This document shows, piece after piece, positions 15,103 through 42,429 of a stretch of 64,000 bases of DNA. A program made the position numbers and the translations under genes. Where the stretch lies: NCBI GenBank assembly GCA_010015805.1, contig ML978125.1, forward strand, positions 248,001 through 312,000. Direction: 5' to 3'. Positions within the stretch are counted from its first letter, which is position 1, and the number at the start of each line of letters is the position of its first letter. The DNA comes from Rhizodiscina lignyota. Taxonomy: Eukaryota; Ascomycota; Dothideomycetes; Aulographales; Rhizodiscinaceae. The notes beneath the pieces were generated by a model. The model was not told the origin of the DNA. It saw only the letters and a program-made list of their open reading frames with translations, and did not search any database.

Positions 15103-16110
15103 ATGCCTCTTCCAGATGACCAACAAGCCGTAGAGGTTGCTAAGGACCTCATTAGCACTCTCAAAGGAGCTTTTGGCACCCCGCCTGGTTATCGTCCTGG
15201 TACCTATGTTCAAACTGCGTTTTGATTAAGGTCTGGTTTCTAACCGCTTCAACTAGCTCATGCTAAAGGTGTCCTCCTGACCGGCACCTTTACACCATCT
15301 TCGACAGCTTCCTCTCTCTCAAGCGCATACCACCTGAACAATGTGACACCAGTGACCGCGCGTTTCTCGTCCAGCACGGGTATCCCAACGATCCCAGACA
15401 CAGATGCAAATGCCGATCCACGCGGATTCGCAGTCCGCTTCCACTATCCTGAGAAGAACGGACGTCGCGTGCACACGGATATCGTCTCACACAGCGTTGA
15501 CAAGTTCCCCACGCGCACGGGTGCTGAATTCTTGGAATTTCTTCAGGCCGTCGGAGCAAGTCAAGGTGCACCTGAGCCCACTCCAGTGCAGAAGTTCCTT
15601 GGCTCTCATCCAGAGACCCTCGACTTTGTGCAAGCACCAAAGCCACCCCCAGCCAGCTTCGCAGAAGAGCCATTCTTCGGTGTCACCGCATTCAAGCTGA
15701 TCAACGGCGACAAGGAGACCTTCGTCCGCTACCGCATCGTCCCAACTGCTGGTGTTCACCAACTCTCGGCTGACGAGGTCAGCTCGAAGGGCCCTAACTA
15801 TCTCATCGAAGAGATTCACGAGCGTGTTGCCAACGGCCCAGTGACGTTCAAACTGAACGCTCAAGTTGCAGAGGCGGGTGACACGACCGACAACAACACA
15901 GTACACTGGCCAGAGAGCAGGCAGGTTGTGGAGTTGGGAGAGATCAAGCTGGACAAGGTCGAGCCTGATGACAAGCAGGCCGCTGAGCAGAAGAACATCA
16001 TCTTCGATCCCATCCCGAGGGTGGAAGGGCTTGCGCCGAGTGCGGATCCGTTGTTGGACGTGAGAGCAGCCCTCTACCTGATTAGTGGCAAAGAGAGGAG
16101 AGCAGCGTAG
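15103..16110 (+). CDS. Catalase-related haem peroxidase (SrpA-like)
   Basis: Two exons, 15103-15199 and 15257-16110, give 316 residues, the size of the short catalase-core proteins rather than of full catalases (about 500-750). These proteins use haem to reduce peroxides with an organic donor. The distal His segment is present as RPAHAKGVLLTGTF, formed across the single 57-bp intron. RGFAVRFHYP and the DIVSHSVDKFPTRTGAEF stretch correspond to the conserved catalase core. The C-terminal NADPH-binding and flavodoxin-like parts of large catalases are absent, as normal for this subgroup. No signal peptide or peroxisomal C-terminal signal is seen. It lies 0.5 kb before the double Zn2Cys6 regulator in the same direction, but a functional tie is only a guess. 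Confidence 0.88.
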
Positions 16111-16651
16111 GCTAGTCTTCATGTGCGGACCATGCATACCTGGTCCTAGTTCTACGGCTGCTTAGAAGCTCTTTGTGGAGTGCGAAAGCATGCTGGATGT
16201 ATAGAAGCTCAGACCCAAAGCGGAAATCATCCAATAGCCATATTGGGTTAGTCTTACTTCGAAAGTGAACGATGAAATATGACCTTGCTTTATCCCTGCA
16301 TGAGCCCGTAAGGCGGCATATCATTTCCATATCATTAGATAACGAGATGCTCGAGTCCATGTCGTCGCCTAACTTGGTGGCTGCGCAGGTGAGGGGCTCT
16401 AGCTGTTAGAGGGATGGCGCGGATCTCCGATATCGTCGCAGCAAAAAGGCCAGCCGCAGAGGAGAAGCGCGCCCAGTTCCGACAGTTGGAGACATCCATG
16501 CTCTCCATGTTTCAATTTGCCTTGCACTCGTCAAAGACTACTCCCAATGCTTTCAGCAGCTCCATTGCCTCCATGCTATGACCTCGTTGAGCGCCCTGGA
16601 GGCGACCGGGATCTCGATAGATGCCCGCTTTGAGCGTTGCTGGGTGGTGCC
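16111..16651. other. Intergenic, promoter of the double Zn2Cys6 regulator
   Basis: About 540 bp holding the 3' UTR of the peroxidase gene and the promoter of the regulator. A CGG-N4-CCG pair lies at 16420-16429. No further gene is seen. Confidence 0.45.
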
Positions 16652-19600
16652 ATGAAACGGAGACAGACCTTCGCGTGCGCGCGATGCTTTCGGAGGAAGA
16701 AGCGATGTATTGCTGCATTTCCTTCTTGTGTGGACTGCCAGAGGGCCGGGGTGAAATGCGTCAATCTAAACCGTGACTCTGACGCCGAGTACCCAAGAAG
16801 GTTTGCAACGACAAGCACGTGCGTTATCTCGATCATGGGCTTACAGCAGGATAGTGTCGTTGCCTTCCTGGAACGTTCAATTACTGAGCTCCAGGCAGAG
16901 ATCGATCAGCAAAAAAGCTTGTCTGCTCCCGGTTCAGTTGCAGGAACTCGCTTGTCTGCCGCTGCTTACGAGCGCTTCTCAAACGTAGTGCAGAACTGTA
17001 TGAGGCATGACTGCAACGCGTCTATCAAGGGCCAACCGAGAGCCATCTACAGCGATGTCTTACTTACTAGTTCTACACCTCCGAGGCCAGCGGTTCTACC
17101 TACCGTGGATCGAAACAGGTCGTCTCATACTCCGAGGACAAGTCTGGATGATATTCCTCCCTCCGTGGCTGAAATACTTTTGGACATATACGTCGAGAAG
17201 ATTCTGCCTCATAATGCCATCTTTCTAGAAGATGAGGTACGCGAACTATATCGTAGAGTATGCGTGGATATCTCTGCACAACAACGAGATGCTCGAGATC
17301 TTTTCATGATATTGATGGTGTTCGCCATCAGTACAATGTGTTCTAAATGCGACGACTTTCGCCGGCCGGCTTCGTTGGCGGAATCTCTTCATGCTGAAGC
17401 TGTACACTACTTTGACTGTACAATCAGCAGCACCACTTCGCTGCAGTGTCTCCTACTCGCAATCCAACTTGCATACGTTCTTCCTGACACCGGTAACATG
17501 GTGAGCTTGGTTGCAGAAGCCATGAGGATGGCCGCCGAGTTACGTCTGCATACTGATCCTTCCGACGGACATGGCCGACATGATGCCGAGAAACGTCAAA
17601 GGCTATTTTGGCAGGTTAGCGGAATACATCTACCCCCATTGCTTTCAGCAAAGACTAACTTTACTTCTAAAGACATATATCATGGAGAGATCTGTCAACT
17701 CATCTGCGAGACAACCTTTGGTCATTGGTGATGATGACATAGACATACCGTTCCCACAAGCTGCAGATCTACAGGGAACCGAAAAATGGCGAGCAAATTT
17801 CGCAACCATCATCCGCTATCGCCACTTCCAGGGCGAAATATTTAGCAGACAGTATCGCAATGCAGATCTAGCTGAACAACCTTACGACGAGTGGATGGCG
17901 CAAAAGGAGCTTGAGGTTCTGTCTTGGAGAGGACGAGCATTAGGAGCTAGTGACACACTCCCGGATTGGTTCAAATTTGGGACTTCGTACATCTTACTCA
18001 GCCTGCATCGTCCTTCTCCCGTCAACCCGACGCCTAGCTTAGCATCGGTGCGAGAATGCATCGTAGCTGCGGGCCATCTAATCTCTGGCTTTCACCATGC
18101 TGCCCGAAACAGTTTATTCAAGTTCACTTGGCATGCTCTGCATAACTGCTTCGAAGGCGGGGCCATCCTCCTTTACAATATCCTACAGTACAATGAGGCA
18201 TTCCGATGCCTCTCAAACGACCTCTTCCAACAGACGGGAGATGTTTTGCGCGAATTGACAGATTTCTTCCCAATCGTTTGCGAGCGATGGCCGAGAGCAA
18301 GAAAAACTGTCGACTTATTCGAAAGCTTAAAAGCACGCGTACTACAAGTCCATGCATTATCATTGCAGGGAGCCGTGGAGCCCGATTTGGAGCTGCATCA
18401 GTTTCTTCGCGACGTCATCTTTCAGAAATCCATCGGAATATCAAACATACATCACGGCTTGTCACTCGGTGTCAATCAAAGTCACACCGCCCTCTCTATT
18501 GATCTAGCATCGACAGAAGAATCCGATGGTGTAGCAAGCTGGCTGGACGCGATTCCGAATCTGGACATCTTTGATGACTTTCATTTTCTAGAACTGCCAA
18601 CCTCCATGTCACCATGGTTGTTGCCAGAGTCGTTCGACACACCCAGTCCGAGGCCACCAATACCAGCAAGTCCAGCCCAAGATGCTGCAGGAATGTATGA
18701 GCCACACATGGACCCGAGCGATCACGCTGATGCCGCATCCTCTTTCATAGAGGAGGCCTTTGATCAGCTCCCTGCCTGTTTAAAGTGTCGTCGCCGGAAA
18801 ATCAAGTGCGACCGTAAATTTCCCTGTTGCGGATATTGTGCACGCACGAATCAAGTTTGCACCATCGTCGATCCGGTACTCGATCAAGAGATCCCACGGT
18901 CACGTTTACAACAGCTGAAGCAGAGATACGATGACCTCTCTCAGAAATTGATCGAAGGAAAGACTCGAGAGGACATCAGCTTCAAGGGAGAGGATGGCCG
19001 TGCGAGTAGCTCGGCATCTACAGAACATAATGACACAATGGCATCAAGCTTACTTGATTCATCATTTGATACCTTCTCAAAGAATCCAAAGGGTAAGACC
19101 GTGTATGTTGGCCGCTCCAGCCCCTTGTTTTCTTTAGGAAGAGCCTTGGATGCCGCGAATATCGGGAAGGCGAGAAGTATCATTGCTTCTATACAGAATC
19201 CCCTCGAACGGGCCTCTGGAGATCTTTCGATTGACTTCCGAAGAACCCTCACTGCTCCTGAAATCGCAGTGCTTATTGATGTATACCATAACAGCATCGA
19301 AGTCTTGTTTCCTGGTCTAAAACAGCAGACACTGGGGCTGATGGCGCCGGGAAGCCCCGAAATAAGTCAACACTCTAATCTCTCAACGCGACAAACGACT
19401 TCCACCAACCTCGTCCTCGCGGTAGCAGCGAGAATGCTTGCCAAGAGAGATTCGCGGATGATGGCAGTCTCCACCGCGCTCCTTGGCGCTGCGATGCAAG
19501 ACTACTCGAGTTTTTGCAGTGAGGTTCAACAGCAGAACGAGGGAGGCCTAACCGCGGTATTTCTGCTCTGCTTGTACTTTTTGCTGGATCCCTCTTCTGG

Positions 19601-20554
19601 AGATGTATGGCGTCTACTTGGCTACGCCTGTAGGCTCTGTACCGAGCTGAGCTGGGACTTTTCTGGAACACTTGGACCAGAGAAAGCTAATTGGCCCTTG
19701 CGATGCTCAGTATTCAGACTGGAGTGGTATTCGCCCCGCACCAACATTCATCTGTATTAAGCTGATCTTTTATCAGTGATGTGTCTATTGCTTACGGTCT
19801 CCCTCCACAGCGTTCCATGCTTTGCATTGACCGTTCGGTGAGCTTACCACACTTACTACTTAACACCTTCTGAAGAAATTACTAATCCTGACTCACGTAG
19901 TGGATCAGCGCCTATGAGACAGACCAAGGAGCGCAATGGACAGCTTACTACCTTCACCGACTAGCCGTGATTAAGCTGTCGATCCATGCTCATATCCTCA
20001 CGAAACATGACGCTCTTGCTGACTGGGAAGTTCTACAAGAGAGACTCCATCGGTGGCAGTCGGCGTGGAAACTCCATATCGAAACAGTGCGGACATTGTC
20101 GAGCACGGATCACGGGATGATATCCTGGTTAGAGCGATGTGGAGAGTTCTATTTCTGCGAGGCTGCTCTTTTCTTTTACAGAGCGGCAGGGGACAGCTCG
20201 ATGCCACTCGCTGACGCTCACGACTTTGCGATCCGATACATCGAGGCATTCTCAATCCTGTATAAGGGCCATCACCATATCTCACCCACAGCTGCGATAG
20301 ATGGACAGAGTCATCTAGCGGATTCGAAATTAGTATTTCCAATATGGTGGACAGCAGTGCACAGCTTGTTCCATGCCGGCATTGTGCTTATCCACCGCCC
20401 GGAGAACGATAAGAAAAGAAGCAACGATTCCCGGCATCAACAGGCAGTACAAACGACGCTCTGGCTACTGGAGTGTCTGAGTATAGACAGAGGGAATCTG
20501 TGTGACGGTCTCGCGGATGAGCTGCAGTATCTGAAGGATCATGTCGGCGCCTGA
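16652..20554 (+). CDS. Fused regulator with two Zn2Cys6 DNA-binding domains
   Basis: Four exons join in phase: 16652-17614, 17673-19726, 19777-19837 and 19901-20554, giving 1,243 residues. The first Zn2Cys6 cluster is at residues about 9-36 (six Cys with spacing 2-6-6-2-6). It is followed by a fungal-specific regulatory (MHR-type) domain, recognisable at DAEKRQRLFWQ|TYIMERSV across intron 1. A second complete cluster starts near residue 690 (CLKCRRRKIKC and five further residues in register), with basic linker, coiled-coil-like stretch and a second MHR domain whose LECDVSIAYGLPPQRS signature forms only after splicing. No stop codon lies between the two halves, and the second cluster sits inside the 2,054-nt exon. 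The parsimonious reading is one head-to-tail fusion of two regulators. An internal ATG at 18708 could start a 577-residue second protein. Targets are unknown; the neighbouring oxygenase and transporter are candidates. Confidence 0.82.
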
Positions 20555-20677
20555 CGGCACTTGATTTATCAGGAGCAGGAGAGGGTTCAACGCATTTTCA
20601 TTAAAACATTAACGAAGACTTAATAACTAAGACTATGACTACATCTCAACATGGCTTCTCTATGCTTCTCAAGCTTC

Positions 20678-22059
20678 TCACTGCCCGATCCCCCTGGTCT
20701 TGAATCTATGACGCTGCATGCTGTGGCGAAGCTCGTAATACTAGAGACTCATCAGTGAAATCTAACAGATCCATAGCTCGATCCAAAAACTTACATCTCC
20801 AACTGTCAGTGGCTCGTACGCCGCCGGGCGGTCGGCTGAGCAGCACTCCGGTAGACACTGCAAGAGTCAGCATTCGCTTTTGTCAGCGACTAGTGGCGGA
20901 CGGCCTTGCCTTTACGACAGCATCGAGGTTTGGGCTGAAGAAGAATGGAGTGGAGTATCGCTCCTTTCCACTTTCGTTGACGACGCGATGAACGGTAGAT
21001 ACAAAGCGGTTATTGGCCATGCGCATCAGAAAATCGCCAACGTTAACGACGAATGTGCCTTCAATTGGTGCAGCAGGAACCCAATGTGCGTTAGCATTAA
21101 GGACTTCGAGACCGCCAACCTTATCCTGGTTGAGGATGGTGAACACTGTGCTGGTGAGAAAGCTGTCACAACAAGCGAGATCAGATCTCCAATCACTCAC
21201 GAGTGAAATCGGTGTGCGCTCCGATTCCGGTGTCATCTTTGATGTCCGGATCCTGTGGAGGATAATGGAGGCTGAATACACATTAGTCTCGATGAACGTC
21301 TCCTAGATATGCCTTGACACTAACATCTTTTGATTAGTATTGGGTGCATCGACCAATTTGTCAAGCGCCGTCTCTTCAGCACCCAATCCAAGCGCGAAGC
21401 AGCGCGTAAGCTGGCGGGCGAGAGTGATGAAGCGCGAATGGTACGCCATTATCTGCTCCTTGAACTCAGGCCATTCGGCGGGCCACTGGTTGAGGTTCAT
21501 CATCCTCTTCGATGCCTCTGAGAGCGTTGGTGGGACCGGGTCGTACTCTGGATCATATGAATTGAGGAACGACTCTTTCCGATCTGAGACATGGTCAGCA
21601 GAGCAATGAGGACAGTTCCGAATGAAGATTTGTACCTCCTCGGGGCTTTGTGTCATCCAACCTTGCACCGTGAACGGGCTCATATCCCTTCAAGTCTTTA
21701 TTCTTGTAGATGTAATGCTCCATTTTCTTCTCCAATGGCATAGCGAAGTACTCCTTCATGATCTTCCACTGGTCGTCAATCAATTTCTGCTCCACGCCAT
21801 GGTTCTTCATGTAGAAGAATCCAACATCTTCACATGCTTGCGCCACTTGCTTTGCAACCTTCATGCGGTCCTCCAACTTTTCACTGAACATGCCCCCAAC
21901 ATCAATAATGGGGATCTCAGTGAAGGTAGATTTCATTTCCTCTCCTGTAAGGACCTTTCGGCGTTCGCCAAATCGGCCATCATAATGGAAATACACATAA
22001 TCCCCCTCGATCTTTGTGGCGACCTTTGTCGGGGTCTCGGTCACAGTGGTGGTAGACAT
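20678..22059 (-). CDS. 2-oxoglutarate/Fe(II) dioxygenase, IPNS-like family
   Basis: Six exons: 22059-21636, 21583-21325, 21271-21201, 21145-20910, 20857-20795 and 20740-20678, giving 371 residues. Members of this DIOX_N plus 2OG-FeII_Oxy family hydroxylate or desaturate small molecules, often in secondary metabolism or nucleobase use. The iron ligands are His247 and Asp249 in GIGAHTDFT and His304 in VSTVHRVV; Arg314 followed by Tyr-Ser binds 2-oxoglutarate. The DIOX_N domain (about residues 46-160) includes EIPIIDVGGMF and VGFFYMKNHGV. The family C-terminus EPLTVGD|YYELRH forms at the last splice. The fourth intron fits only with a GC-AG border (AAG|GCAAGG); no in-phase GT donor gives the family-like CLPECCSADRP continuation. 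The gene converges on the regulator (123 bp apart) and diverges from the transporter, which suggests shared control. Confidence 0.9.
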
Positions 22060-23198
22060 GATGGTAATAACGAGGCCTGAGGCGAAGGATCACGCAGACG
22101 GTTTCGACTTCCAATATAATGGATCCCTTCAGGCAGTATTTATGAAGACCCAAGTTCTCGGTGCTCTTTCTAGCAACACCAAGGACGGAGATACCCCATC
22201 ACAAACCGTTGCGTCGGGCGTTTAGCGCTCACCAAGTCAACAATCACGCGCTATTCCGACGAATAGCCTCCCCGAGCCGTATCATCGGGTTTAAACGCAC
22301 GAGTGTGCAGCTTTCACCATCCTAGCATTATCATCAGTCGGATGCTTTAGCGCGTCTTCGATTCTGCAAAGCATATCAAAAGCGAGAAGCTGCATCTAGA
22401 CTTTATCGCTGGAAGTTCGGACGAGCGAGCAAATGTACTTTGATTGCCGAATACCGCGTTGTCAGTGTAGATATTAGTGAAGACTAGCCCAAGCTTTTTA
22501 GTTCAGCCTCCCGGCGGGACCCCGCGGGACAACATATGCTTCACCAAGTCTTAGCAAGATGAGAAGATATGGTTGGGCACAGCGGTCGTCAAGCCTTGCC
22601 CAGGGACTGACTTGCGGCGAAGTGGACTTACGTAAGGATCAACTCCAAACGTCGGCGAACATCCCTTCCTCCTGAAAAGACGACTCCTGGAGAATTTCGA
22701 GAATATCTTCATTCAAAATTCCGTTTTGATTGATATCTTCGCCATCAATGGCGCGCTACACTATTCGGTTAGAGACTTAGAAGAGGTAGAGGTACTTATC
22801 AGAGGTACTTATCATGGATCGGGATTATGCGTCCTCAACAGGCACCAGGTTACCTGTGTCGGGATAATGCGCGGTCGGAATCCGTCTGCCACACCTGTTG
22901 ATAGCAGCTGCCGTGAGAACCGCGGAGTCGATCCTGAATAGCTGTACAACTAGCGGATCCACACTTCCACTCTCCGAGTCAGGGTTGAAAGATGGGGACG
23001 GTGCAATTGGACGGCGACCTCCAAGGTTGTGATAACGAGAATACAGGAATACCCCTCAGTAATAGTCTAGATTGATAGAGCGCCTCATGAGGCGGGCAAA
23101 AGTTCAGCATAAAATGTGCTGCATGTCCACCTATGACCATGCAGACATTGTTTCTCAAGTTGATTGCTCGCACGCATATTCTTCCCTGAACGTCCATC
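22060..23198. promoter_or_regulatory. Divergent promoter with two CGG-N7-CCG sites
   Basis: This 1.1-kb space separates the start codons of the dioxygenase (minus) and the transporter (plus), so it likely drives both. Two palindromic half-site pairs with the same spacing are visible: CGG at 22512-22514 with CCG at 22522-22524, and CGG at 22872-22874 with CCG at 22882-22884. Such CGG triplets in inverted order are the classic recognition pattern of Zn2Cys6 dimers. A GC-rich inverted repeat surrounds the first. A short direct repeat (AGAGGTACTTATC twice) lies at about 22785-22813. Binding is an inference. Confidence 0.45.
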
Positions 23199-28372: not shown

Positions 28373-30905
28373 TTACAAGCTCGTCACGCGCTGCCCAATG
28401 TTGTACATGCTGTACGGGCGTCTTCTACCTACAGGGTTCACCCCCTGCCCGCTCTTCCGTCTTGTCACTGTCGAGCTGGCATCGCCGTTCGGGCCACCAC
28501 CAGGTCCACCCCCAGATCCAATGACAGCCTCAAGCTCTTTTATCATTTGCCCACCCACATCCCTCTTTTCCCTCACAATGTTCGTCCTCTTTCGTTCCTC
28601 CATTAATCTTTGAACACGTTCCTGCGGCGTTCCCGTCAACGCTCTCGGTGGTCGCGGCGCGGCAACAGCCTCAAAGACTTCCTCCATCCCAACCCCCGAG
28701 TCGGGCGAATCGCTCGCATCCGTGCCTGTGGATACTCTTAATCTCGGGCTCGCAGACGATCTCCTCATCCGGCTGCCGAGGGAGGTCAGTCTGAACGAGG
28801 ACCGATCCGGTGAATCGCCGTCTCCTTCAAGAGCCTTGAGCGCATCACTCGGCGTCCCTGCGAGTCCGTTTAGCACCTCATCGACGGCCGTCAACCCGCC
28901 CAAGCTAACCGCTGGACTGCGTAGTCCAGAACTGCTCATCCCACTGGCCCTGCTGATGCGACGCCCCGCTCTCTCTAGACTGAGGGCTAGACCCGTACGG
29001 CCGGCCTCCCATGCTTGAACCAGGTTCTTCAGATCCGCACCAATGGCGTCATAGTGGGCGAGGAGGCTCGATCCGACCTCTGCGAGTTGCATGTCGTCGT
29101 CGGTAGCGCCGTCCATGCTATCGAAAGGAAAGGGGGATTGGGGATTGTTCTGCGTGGGTGTTGCTGTGAGTGCAAGTGCACTCTCTTCGCGGAGGATCTG
29201 CATTTTCGCTTGGAGTGAACGGATTCCTTGGCTCAGGGTTGCGAGTTTTCGGAATTGTGTACGGAGTCGTTCTCTTGTTGGGGTGCTGGACACGGTACTA
29301 CTCGAATTTGAATGTCCTGCATTTGTCGTAGGAGATGGTGAAGGGAGAGTGAACGGTTCTTCCTCAGAGAGGATATTGCACATCTTCTCTGCTGCTTCTC
29401 CAACCACTTGGGCGAGCCTTATCAACAGCTCACCCGCTACTCGCCAACGTGGATAGTCACCACTGGTACCATCGGCTTCCAATGCCATTAACGCACATAA
29501 GAATAACCGCCTTAGTGTGATGAGGCGATACTGGTGTATTCTGAGAGCCTTGAGACTCTCCATGTCCTCGAACTCATCTTCTTTCCACCCAGCAGTGGCT
29601 TGCTGAACATCGTCATTATTCACATCGTATACATCAAGATATCGTTCGAGGTCATCTTCGTCGATAATTTTTCGTAGAGTGGAGTAGGCTTCTGCGAGAG
29701 CGGGAATGGTGGCGGCGAAGGAATTACGGAGCGCTTTGCGCAGACGAACGCAGCGCTTTGTACTCGAAGACTGTTCGAGCCGAGTGATTGGAGGGAGAGG
29801 AACGCTTCTGCTTAGCGGATTAGCGAACATGTATGAGCAGCGATCCAAACAGTAGCATACAGCCTGTATCCTCTGCTGACTAGTTCAACTTCTTGGATGA
29901 GCAGAATAGCAGAAGAGCTTGACGCATCGAAGCTATGCAAATTTGTAGCGAGAGTAGACACAGACGTGACGGCCTGATGCCTAAGGTATAGAAGTAATTG
30001 TCTTCTTGCATAGACATAAAAAACCGTTGCTACGATTGTCAGCGCTACCAGCACTATAGCAGCCTTGCTTTTGTTGAAGGTATGAGCTCTCAAGCTCCCT
30101 CTTGACCAGTGCACTAGCCATATGAGCGTGAGCGCTGCGACTCCGGTCGCAATTGCGCTTGCTGGAGTTATGATTTTGAAGTCGATGGGTGATGGAGCGA
30201 GAGTTGACTCGTTGGGAGTAGAATTAGCTTTGAACGGTGCCTGGTTGGTATGTTCCTCGAGGAGTTCTGAGGCGACGAGGATGTAGCGGAAGTGCTCTAT
30301 AAAGCGCGCATTTTCCGCAGCTGAGGGTTTGGCTTTAATCGCGCGCTACAGACACGTTAGCATCACGATCTCCATTCCACAGCACTTTCACGACTTACCG
30401 CGCATGCGCTACATAGCCCAGCAATTGGCCCTTCTCTGGATATTTTCGGCTTTAAAGGTGGTGGTATCATGCTTCGAAATGCTTTCCTAGGTTTTGGAGG
30501 GCCACGCGGCGCGTACTCAGGTTTTGCTCTGCTTTGTACCGTAGCGGCCGCGCCATCTTGTGGATCATCCTGTGAATGATCTTTGTCCCCCTCTTCGTCA
30601 GCTGAGTAACTGGGGTCCTCCCATTCATCCTCTGCGTGTCCGGCTCCTATCCGCGACGTCAGTGTATTCACAACCGCAGCGGCGGTGAGCGCGTAAATTG
30701 ACGAGCGCTCCTTGCACAGCACGACGACCATTGGGTTCGCGGTATGTGAAGAAGCGCAAAGAGGGTCATGTTTTGACGCGACGGCGGACGCGCGGGTTGG
30801 AGTGGCATGGATGTCCTCTCTTCCTTGCCTCGGTGGTTGAAATAAATGACACGTACCTTCAAGGTATTCAGCCAGCGGAGAGTCTTCGTATATGATGTTT
30901 TCCAT
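28373..30905 (-). CDS. Vezatin/Inp2-like membrane protein with myosin-binding domain
   Basis: Exons 30905-30399, 30345-29861 and 29810-28373 give 809 residues. The start MENIIYEDSP is chosen as the family-like N-terminus. Two hydrophobic segments flank a short loop (from ITPASAIATGVAALTLIWLV to AAIVLVALTIVATVFYVYA), followed by the SRGYRL|RSVPLPPITRLE block that joins across the last intron; this arrangement is typical of fungal proteins with the vezatin/myosin-binding domain. In yeast the related Inp2 ties peroxisomes to class V myosin; vertebrate vezatin acts at cell junctions. The C-terminal half is Ser/Pro-rich and likely disordered, ending in a basic tail. Within exon 1 a possible 210-nt intron (30856-30647, GTACGT to TAG) has a length divisible by three and no stop, so spliced (739 residues) and unspliced forms are both open. 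Confidence 0.72.
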
Positions 30906-39465: not shown

Positions 39466-42429
39466 ATGGATCCATTGTCTCTCATTGGAGGCGTCAGTGC
39501 CGCTGGCGCAATTGTAGCGGCGATCGTTAAGACTTTGAAAACACTATCTGACGCTCGGGGCAAATTTGATAATGCGGACACCACCATCTACCTTCTAATT
39601 AGTGAGCTGACGGCCATCAAGGCGGCCATTGAGCAGATCAAGGACTGGGCGACCTACGTGGCACAGAGTCCCAGTCGACAGGAGCTGGTGGAGGCATTCA
39701 AAATCTCATTTGATGGATGTAAAATTGCTATGGATACGTTGGCTGATGATATCGCTGGACTGGTCTCGAACAATCCATTTTTTGCGCGAGCAAAATATAC
39801 ATGGAACGAAGTTGAGATGAAGGATCACGCTGACAGGCTTCGGGACCAAGTTAGAGCGCTTCAGCTGTTGATTCAGGCAGTTCATTGGTATACACGGAAC
39901 GTGCACTCTTTCGCTGCTCATAAACGCTGATATTGCAACAGTCGCAACGAAATACAACAAGCAGCCCTACTTGAAGAACCCAGCAACGTTCGTATCATTC
40001 GAAAGGTGGCAGATGACACCGAGACTCTTTGCGCCAGTCGGAGAAGTTACGCTCATCTTTCCAGCGGTACACCCAGTGCGGCCACAATTACTGATGCAAC
40101 CGAATCTAATCTTGGAACCGCGTTGGATGAAGCAGACCGTAAAACGGTCAGTACAAACCCATGGCGGCGGTCCCCGGGGCTGAAAACTCCTGAAAATCGC
40201 CCTCAGGGGCGGGCCGCGTCCATAAACTCGGAAACTTCGGAAATTCTGAGCCCACCCGTGAGTCTGGGGTTCGAGAAACGCAGGCTCACGGTCCGCACAA
40301 ATGTAACCAAAGACAGCGGGTTCTACGATGCAGATGCGGACCAGGTTAATCCCGAAGCTTACCGGGAAGCGGTGGCGGCCGACAAAGCACGAAATGTGCA
40401 TAGGACTGTCTCCGCTCCGCAGGCGAAGCCCGTACAGGCAGCTGCGTTCTTTGACGAGGCGCGAGATCAGTTGACTCCAATGGAACGTTTCAACACAGAA
40501 TGGCAAACAAGACCGCTCGATCTAGATCCATTCGACACCCAGTCTGCTGTGCGTCCTATCCGCCACCACGCATCCCACTCAGAATCTTCCCTGTCTCCTG
40601 TTTTGCACGTGAAAAGGTCGGAAGAGTTCAGAAAATCTCCGTGGGGGACGATAAAACGCGGCTTTAGCCGAGCAATCTCTTCGCCTTCCGGGCAGATCGG
40701 GTCCGCGAGACCGAGTGATGCCACACTAGCAATAATTGGGACCAAAAGCGTCAAGCGAAGAAGTGAAACAAACATTCACCACAGCATCGACTTCGGCAGC
40801 GAAGATGGATTGTTGGCGCCGCCTCTCGTTCGAGCGGCACAGTCCGGCTCCAGAGTTGAAGTCGAACGATTACTTGAACAGAGAGCCGACATTGAAGCCC
40901 GCCACCTCAGTTCTGGAAGGACGGCACTGGCTGTGGCATCACATTGCGGCAATGACGGCGTCGTCATTTCATTACTGTACCATCACGCGAGAAATGATGT
41001 CAAAGATGCACTTGGCATGACCCCACTCCATCTCGCAGCGTCACGCGGCCACTATAGAGTACTGAATCTTCTACTAGAGAACGATGCCGACGTCGACGCG
41101 CGAGGGCCGGATGACAAGACACCGCTTCGACTCGCCTCTGACAATGGACACTCCGAGTGCTGCGAGCTGCTTTTAGAACACAGGGCGAGAGTGAATGCAA
41201 GAGACTGCCACATGGTCACACCACTTCATGCAGCGGCGAGGATTGGAGATGCACACCTTATCGATCTGCTCATCAACAACAAAGCTGATTTTGAAGCGAA
41301 GGATGCGTCCTTGATGACGCCCCTTCACTACGCCGCGCATGGCGACTTCGATTCCGTAGTTGAGGTCTTGCTTGCTCACAAAGCAGATGTCAACTCTATT
41401 GGCTTCCAAGGCAAGACGCCTCTTTGTTGCGCCTGCGAATCTGGTGCGACTCACACGGCGGCACTCCTCATCTCTCGTAAGGCCAACATTCGTCATCAAG
41501 GCGAAGATAACATGACGCCCCTCCACTGGGCATGTCAGAGCAACAGGCCGGAAGCAGCGGACCTACTATTACAACAAAAGCGGGCCCAAATTGATGCGAG
41601 AAACAGTAAAGGCCGAACGCCGCTGCACCTTGCAGTATGGGCGAAGAGCTTCGACGCCGCAGACCTCTTGATTCGCAAAGGCGCATCGATCGAGCTACAA
41701 TGCTATCAAACCCTTAGACCTCTACACTATGCTTGCAAGAACAGCGATGCGGCAATAACACGGCTTCTTCTGCACTCTGGTGCAGACGTCGAAGCAGCGA
41801 CTGCGACTGGCTTGCGGCCTCTTCACCAAGCGGTTGCTAAAGGGACGGAGGCTGTCATAGCCATGCTACTTCAGAAAGGCGCTCAGACCGAATCCCGTAT
41901 GTCCAACGGCGAGCGCGCGCTTTGCATAGCATGTTCGTGTGGGCACATAGGTGCTGTTAGGATGATACTAGACGCTGGAAGTCCTATGCAAATGAAGGCA
42001 TCGAAAGGACCTTCCCTCGAAGACTCGCCTCTTTGTCGGGCTGCACGGTACGGCCATGCCGACATTGTTCAAGAGCTAATTAGAAGAGGCACATCAGTCC
42101 GACAACGCGACGAGAACAACTGGCAGCCACTTAGATACGCAGCGTATTTCGGACATCCTGCCGTAGTCGAGACACTTCTGGCCGAAAAGGCACCTGTCTT
42201 CACATTTGATGTGGGCCATAACATGGATGCCATGACCACAGCTTCAAGCATCGGCTTTGCTGCAGAGGTCGACGCTACGAGGAGAGTGCAGGTGCTCAAT
42301 ATGCTGAACACCGCACAGGAGAGAGAGCGGAATGTGCCGCGGAGACTCTCAGATACAGATCCCTACTTGACGATGCCACCTGCAGATGCGATAGCATCGG
42401 AAGCTGTTCGCATATATGAGGTTGCGTAA
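39466..42429 (+). CDS. PigL_N-like N-terminus plus ankyrin repeats
   Basis: Two exons, 39466-39887 and 39942-42429, give 969 residues. The N-terminal 140 residues start MDPLSLIGGVSAAGAIVAAI and match the helical domain seen at the N-termini of fungal STAND/NLR-like and ankyrin proteins (PigL_N-like). Residues about 160-420 are Ser/Arg-rich and probably disordered. From about residue 440 to 910 there are roughly 14 consecutive ankyrin repeats, recognisable by TPLHLAASRGHYRVLNLLL, TPLHAAARIGDAHLI, TPLHYAAHGDFDSVVEVLL and similar units every 33 residues. No nucleotide-binding (NACHT or NB-ARC) module lies between. Such proteins are thought to take part in self/non-self recognition or stress signalling, but the role here is unknown. 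A short 54-bp intron separates the N-terminal domain from the rest. Confidence 0.88.

Follow-up and report, generated by a model that had tools for sequence, protein, structure and literature searches.

The forward strand of the window (the whole 64,000 nt stretch of Rhizodiscina lignyota contig ML978125.1 that was analyzed) probably carries, between 16652 and 20554, a single gene for a tandem-fused regulator with two complete Zn2Cys6 units in one chain. In filamentous ascomycetes no regulator family is larger than that of the Zn2Cys6 proteins, which normally act as dimers of two chains. The first half of the predicted protein (residues 1-643) would consist of a zinc cluster, a short coiled coil, a Fungal_trans domain and an acidic tail, and a divergent second regulator of the same build (residues 644-1225) would be fused to it in frame. 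The first-pass annotation had proposed a head-to-tail fusion of two regulators within a single open frame, and at the DNA level the frame, the domains and the alignment of the halves bear it out; layout, open frame and homology can all be read directly from the letters. Translation of both halves as one protein is probable and no more than that, given the intron candidate located at the joint.

The gene was modeled with five exons, which splice in phase into one protein of 1225 residues with a terminal stop only:

16652-16800, 16855-17614, 17673-19726, 19777-19837 and 19901-20554 (+): exons of the predicted gene, splice sites inferred from sequence
16801-16854 (+): intron 1, 54 nt, which leaves the frame; once it is removed, the PRS linker is restored and aligns to PPR1 without gaps
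17615-17672 (+): intron 2, 58 nt; its removal restores RLFWQ-TYIMERS
19727-19776 (+): intron 3, 50 nt, with the weak donor GTATTC; required to get past the stop at 19758
19838-19900 (+): intron 4, 63 nt

One uninterrupted reading frame runs over both units, and their joint lies within the single exon 17673-19726, open for 684 codons. The stop-free run across the joint reaches 744 codons, and no run exceeds 334 codons in any of 60 order-2 Markov copies of the window, which serve as a null for chance and not for genes. The coordinates and layout proposed earlier were right, in that the exons splice in phase and no stop lies between the clusters; the length of the protein had to be corrected from 1243 to 1225 residues with the addition of intron 1. 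With this intron left in, the frame is likewise open (1243 aa) and the second cluster falls near residue 690. Intron 3 is the weakest of the called introns, in view of its donor and of the four residues that half 2 lacks beside it when aligned with half 1.

The two zinc clusters have the same spacing:

16676-16759 (+): first Zn2Cys6 cluster, residues 9-36, C-X2-C-X6-C-X6-C-X2-C-X6-C; Pfam PF00172, 26.2 bits (cut-off 21)
18777-18860 (+): second Zn2Cys6 cluster, residues 672-699, spacing as in the first; Pfam PF00172, 30.8 bits

Both copies combine a Pfam match with the pattern used for the Zn_clus class (C-X2-C-X6-C-X5-12-C-X2-C-X6-8-C). The general Zn2Cys6 pattern occurs twice in the six frames of the window and in none of the 60 order-2 Markov copies. 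The first cluster was found where the first-pass annotation had put it, near residue 9, and the second, also present, begins at residue 672 and not at about 690 once the 54 nt of intron 1 are removed. The cluster sequence is canonical in half 2 (RRRKIKCD) and divergent in half 1 (FRRKKRCI); the lysine that we take to correspond to Lys18 of Gal4 is present in both. Among PDB structures, PPR1 is the best match of both halves (E values of 2.8e-07 for half 1 and 2.1e-09 for half 2), with the matches confined to the cluster and linker. After the removal of intron 1, the half 1 linker (PRS-VVAFLER) aligns without gaps to PPR1 over 57 residues. The PRS linker of half 2, unlike that of half 1, carries no intron. 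Compared with each other, the cluster and linker of the two halves align without gaps over 64 residues.

The regulatory regions are less alike in their Pfam assignments:

17273-17798 (+): half 1 match to Fungal_trans (Pfam PF04082, 59 bits, cut-off 23), residues 190-345, containing intron 2
19257-20395 (+): residues 832-1173, the regulatory region in half 2, containing introns 3 and 4; its counterpart in the alignment is half 1 residues 152-471

Beyond Zn_clus, no Pfam match, Fungal_trans included, was obtained for half 2 at E values up to 1, and the second regulatory domain claimed earlier stands as a region that aligns with half 1. In a comparison run with the clusters left out, residues 152-471 and 832-1173 align colinearly with a score of 119 versus a shuffled mean of 63, a score reached by 0 of 200 shuffles. 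A second run gave a z value of 7.5, compared with -0.7 for the reversed control and at most 2.4 in 24 comparisons with 12 other proteins of the window; 73 of the 307 aligned residues (24%) are identical. Since this colinear alignment lies well above the controls, half 2, as judged from the alignment, probably has the same kind of regulatory domain as half 1. On the same grounds the halves are old, divergent relatives. A recent tandem duplication is ruled out by the identities of 33% (64-residue cluster and linker) and 24% (regulatory regions). The intron positions differ between the halves, with intron 2 in half 1 and intron 3 in half 2 lying near each other in the alignment. At 19690-19790, where the weak intron 3 (donor GTATTC) is located, half 2 is about 4 regulatory residues shorter than half 1; a small deletion or a mis-set splice site is possible there. 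The most likely origin of the gene is that two neighboring regulator genes on the same strand became one when the stop of the first and the DNA between them were lost.

The region of the joint comprises the following features:

18558-18776 (+): acidic tail of half 1, rich in proline, and the approach to the second cluster, same frame, open
18693-18695 (+): Met 644, likely the former start codon of half 2
18695-18750 (+): intron candidate on the joint, GTATGA ... CTGAT ... CATAG, 56 nt; outside the favored model

Met 644 is located 28 residues ahead of the second cluster, and the other in-frame methionines near the joint are Met 615 (at 18606) and Met 649 (at 18708). The intron candidate starts at the last base of Met 644. 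Its splicing would take away both Met 644 and Met 649; half 1 would then run through five new residues to the stop at 18761, and half 2 would be cut off. No frame-keeping variant of this intron was seen ahead of the second cluster when the sequence was inspected by eye. Under a strict rule (donor GT[AG][ATG]G, branch CT[AG]A[CT], pyrimidine-AG, 45-80 nt) it is the single candidate in the 3,468 nt of the three long exons of the gene, and 2 candidates, one of them probably a real intron located where the second vezatin stretch begins, are found in 17,937 nt of Pfam-supported stretches (~0.1 per kb); the rule also misses introns, as among the four called ones intron 4 alone has a strict donor.

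The composition of 18695-18750 suggests that it is exon-like, by a test that is weak. Its GC content is 0.55, as compared with 0.40-0.50 in five introns, with 86% of the 56-nt windows of the exon no higher, and its codon score of 0.250 falls in the upper fifth of the in-frame blocks; the test separates introns from exons only loosely, with the called intron 1 at a codon score of 0.058 and a GC content of 0.50. The 46 codons up to 18695 have a mean codon score of 0.068 (38% of the leave-one-out in-frame blocks are no higher, and 5.6% of the off-frame blocks reach it), and the 27 codons up to 18776 have a mean of 0.288, which is above 90% of the in-frame blocks and is reached by no off-frame block. 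The codon score at the joint falls in the range of the Pfam-supported stretches. The open frame is the best of the six in 20 of the 26 blocks of the long exon, a count that favors the open frame in that stops are penalized. The codon test is weak for this gene because several of its own exons score low (-0.174 for exon 1, -0.021 for exon 2 and -0.033 for 18777-19724).

The same stretch could be read as two overlapping tandem genes, of which gene 1 would splice out 18695-18750 and end at 18761, and gene 2 would start at Met 644 or nearby, driven by a separate promoter within the final part of gene 1. The donor of the candidate is better than those of three of the four called introns, CTGAT and CATAG follow as branch site and acceptor, and the 56 nt of the candidate are similar to the size of the called introns (50-63 nt); the scarcity of strict candidates and the distance from Met 644 to the second cluster, like that in a free-standing regulator, point the same way. 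However, the start codons of gene 2 would then sit in the last intron of gene 1, without any intergenic space, and same-strand gene overlap of such a kind is rare. The frames of the two halves would also agree without need, and the exon-like GC content and codon score of the candidate argue against its splicing, although the values of intron 1 blunt this test. Two genes are considered rather unlikely.

A splice switch within one gene would produce the double regulator when the 56 nt are retained, and half 1 alone, with half 2 untranslated, when they are spliced. Both readings are open and have sensible ends, as splicing reaches a stop five codons on, but at the observed density of strict candidates a chance match is conceivable, and such a switch appears quite improbable. 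Hardly credible is the reading in which an error of sequencing or assembly, or the decay of half 2, makes two genes appear as one: the missing Pfam regulatory match of half 2, the weak donor of intron 3 and the short deletion relative to half 1 would fit it, whereas the second cluster has the higher Pfam score of the two and no stop interrupts the exon over 684 codons. One fused gene is the preferred reading. No relatives were matched in viral contigs (whole protein, first 338 residues and last exon) or in prokaryotic genome contigs (middle exon and first 338 residues), both being collections without fungal genomes as such. The structure predicted for the 684-residue exon from the single sequence (mean pLDDT of 39.2, pTM of 0.27) was too poor to use.

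Zn2Cys6 proteins of the Gal4/PPR1 type dimerize through the coil that follows the linker and bind CGG half-sites in this form. The corresponding segments in the fused protein are:

16799-16921 (+): half 1, residues 50-72, split by intron 1; linker and a short coiled coil, predicted from the heptad pattern only
18900-18968 (+): half 2, residues 713-735; linker and a short coiled coil, predicted from the heptad pattern only

The same register was chosen independently in both predicted coils, and the cluster-to-PRS distance is equal (12). The net charges of the coils are -3 in half 1 and +1 in half 2. In the g-e' count, the mixed pair scores +1, half 1 with itself +2 and half 2 with itself -4. 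The charge cycle favors mixed pairing by 4 units, and the self-pairing of the half 1 coil, which scores above the mixed pair, counts against a built-in pair. Both clusters would bind CGG-type half-sites, and the two short coils may pair within the chain, so that a single chain would supply a Gal4/PPR1-like unit whose two clusters differ; alternatively, they may pair between chains. It is plausible, from the predicted coils, that the protein acts as a built-in dimer that binds two half-sites alone. The matched linker geometry and the opposite coil charges are compatible with this reading, and each half may also form ordinary two-chain dimers. A self-contained heterodimer with pairing of the acidic and basic coils, combined with retention of the 56-nt intron (18695-18750) as a switch between a single- and a double-cluster regulator, is highly improbable. 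CGG pairs are not in excess over shuffled copies in the 541-base promoter (16111-16651), and self-regulation is for this reason without support.

In respect to known systems, the cluster spacing, the PRS linker and the following coil resemble those of ordinary Gal4/PPR1-type regulators, PPR1 in particular, and half 1 has the Fungal_trans domain; those regulators have one cluster per chain and dimerize, whereas here the whole unit is present twice per chain. Two C6 clusters in one predicted protein are described, in the accessible part of PMC6471507, for CCG_02279 of Tolypocladium guangdongense and CCM_00582 of Cordyceps militaris. Compared by description, these are DUF3468 proteins that lack the fungal-specific transcription factor domain, and their cluster spacings are X5 and X6, as opposed to X6 in both clusters here. 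PoZCP55 of Pleurotus ostreatus is likewise a predicted protein with two zinc cluster domains, both of which, in the portion of PMC7295025 available, are C-terminal in a septin-domain protein, unlike the layout here. A two-Zn2Cys6 protein of Alternaria brassicicola is cited in PMC10305253, as far as the available text goes. Dual-specificity fungal regulators, with two DNA-binding domains per chain as here, are listed by Shelest 2017 (PMC5415576) and in PMC8637145; among the table rows examined in these two sources the domains are of different kinds, e.g. C2H2 and a Zn cluster, and no pair of two Zn clusters is found. The present protein is not a dual-specificity regulator in the published sense, which implies domains of different families, as both of its domains are Zn_clus. 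In the open-access literature, searched in a way that leaves bracketed names such as Zn(II)2Cys6 unmatched and may miss an earlier report, no paper was found on a cluster-regulatory-cluster-regulatory chain. Two clusters per predicted protein are already in print, and a tandem of whole regulator units is unusual, not unheard-of.

Domain databases contain further double layouts, some of which come from fused gene models. A natural chain with two full units, if true, would show how regulators merge; it would also be a heterodimer fixed at 1:1 and a tool to read asymmetric sites. Should splicing occur at the joint instead, the gene would be a warning on gene models that fuse neighboring regulators.

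The regulator is preceded by a catalase-family gene (15244-16107, +) and followed by a convergent gene for a 2-oxoglutarate-type oxygenase (DIOX_N, 21598-22089, -). Farther out are a series of membrane-protein-like ORFs near 23.3-24.8 kb, an alpha/beta hydrolase and an FAD-binding protein. Between the end of the regulator and the convergent oxygenase (20555-20882), 5 everted CCG-N-CGG pairs are present versus 0.76 (sd 1.09) in base-shuffled copies, and 5 direct CGG pairs versus 1.64 (sd 1.72), small counts set against shuffles that did not keep dinucleotides. Elsewhere in the window, 29808-29860 (-) is probably a 53-nt intron of a vezatin-domain gene, joining the stretches 29815-30345 and 28376-29884. 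A long ankyrin-repeat protein, open over 832 residues and matching Ank_2 with 275 bits, is encoded at 39931-42426.
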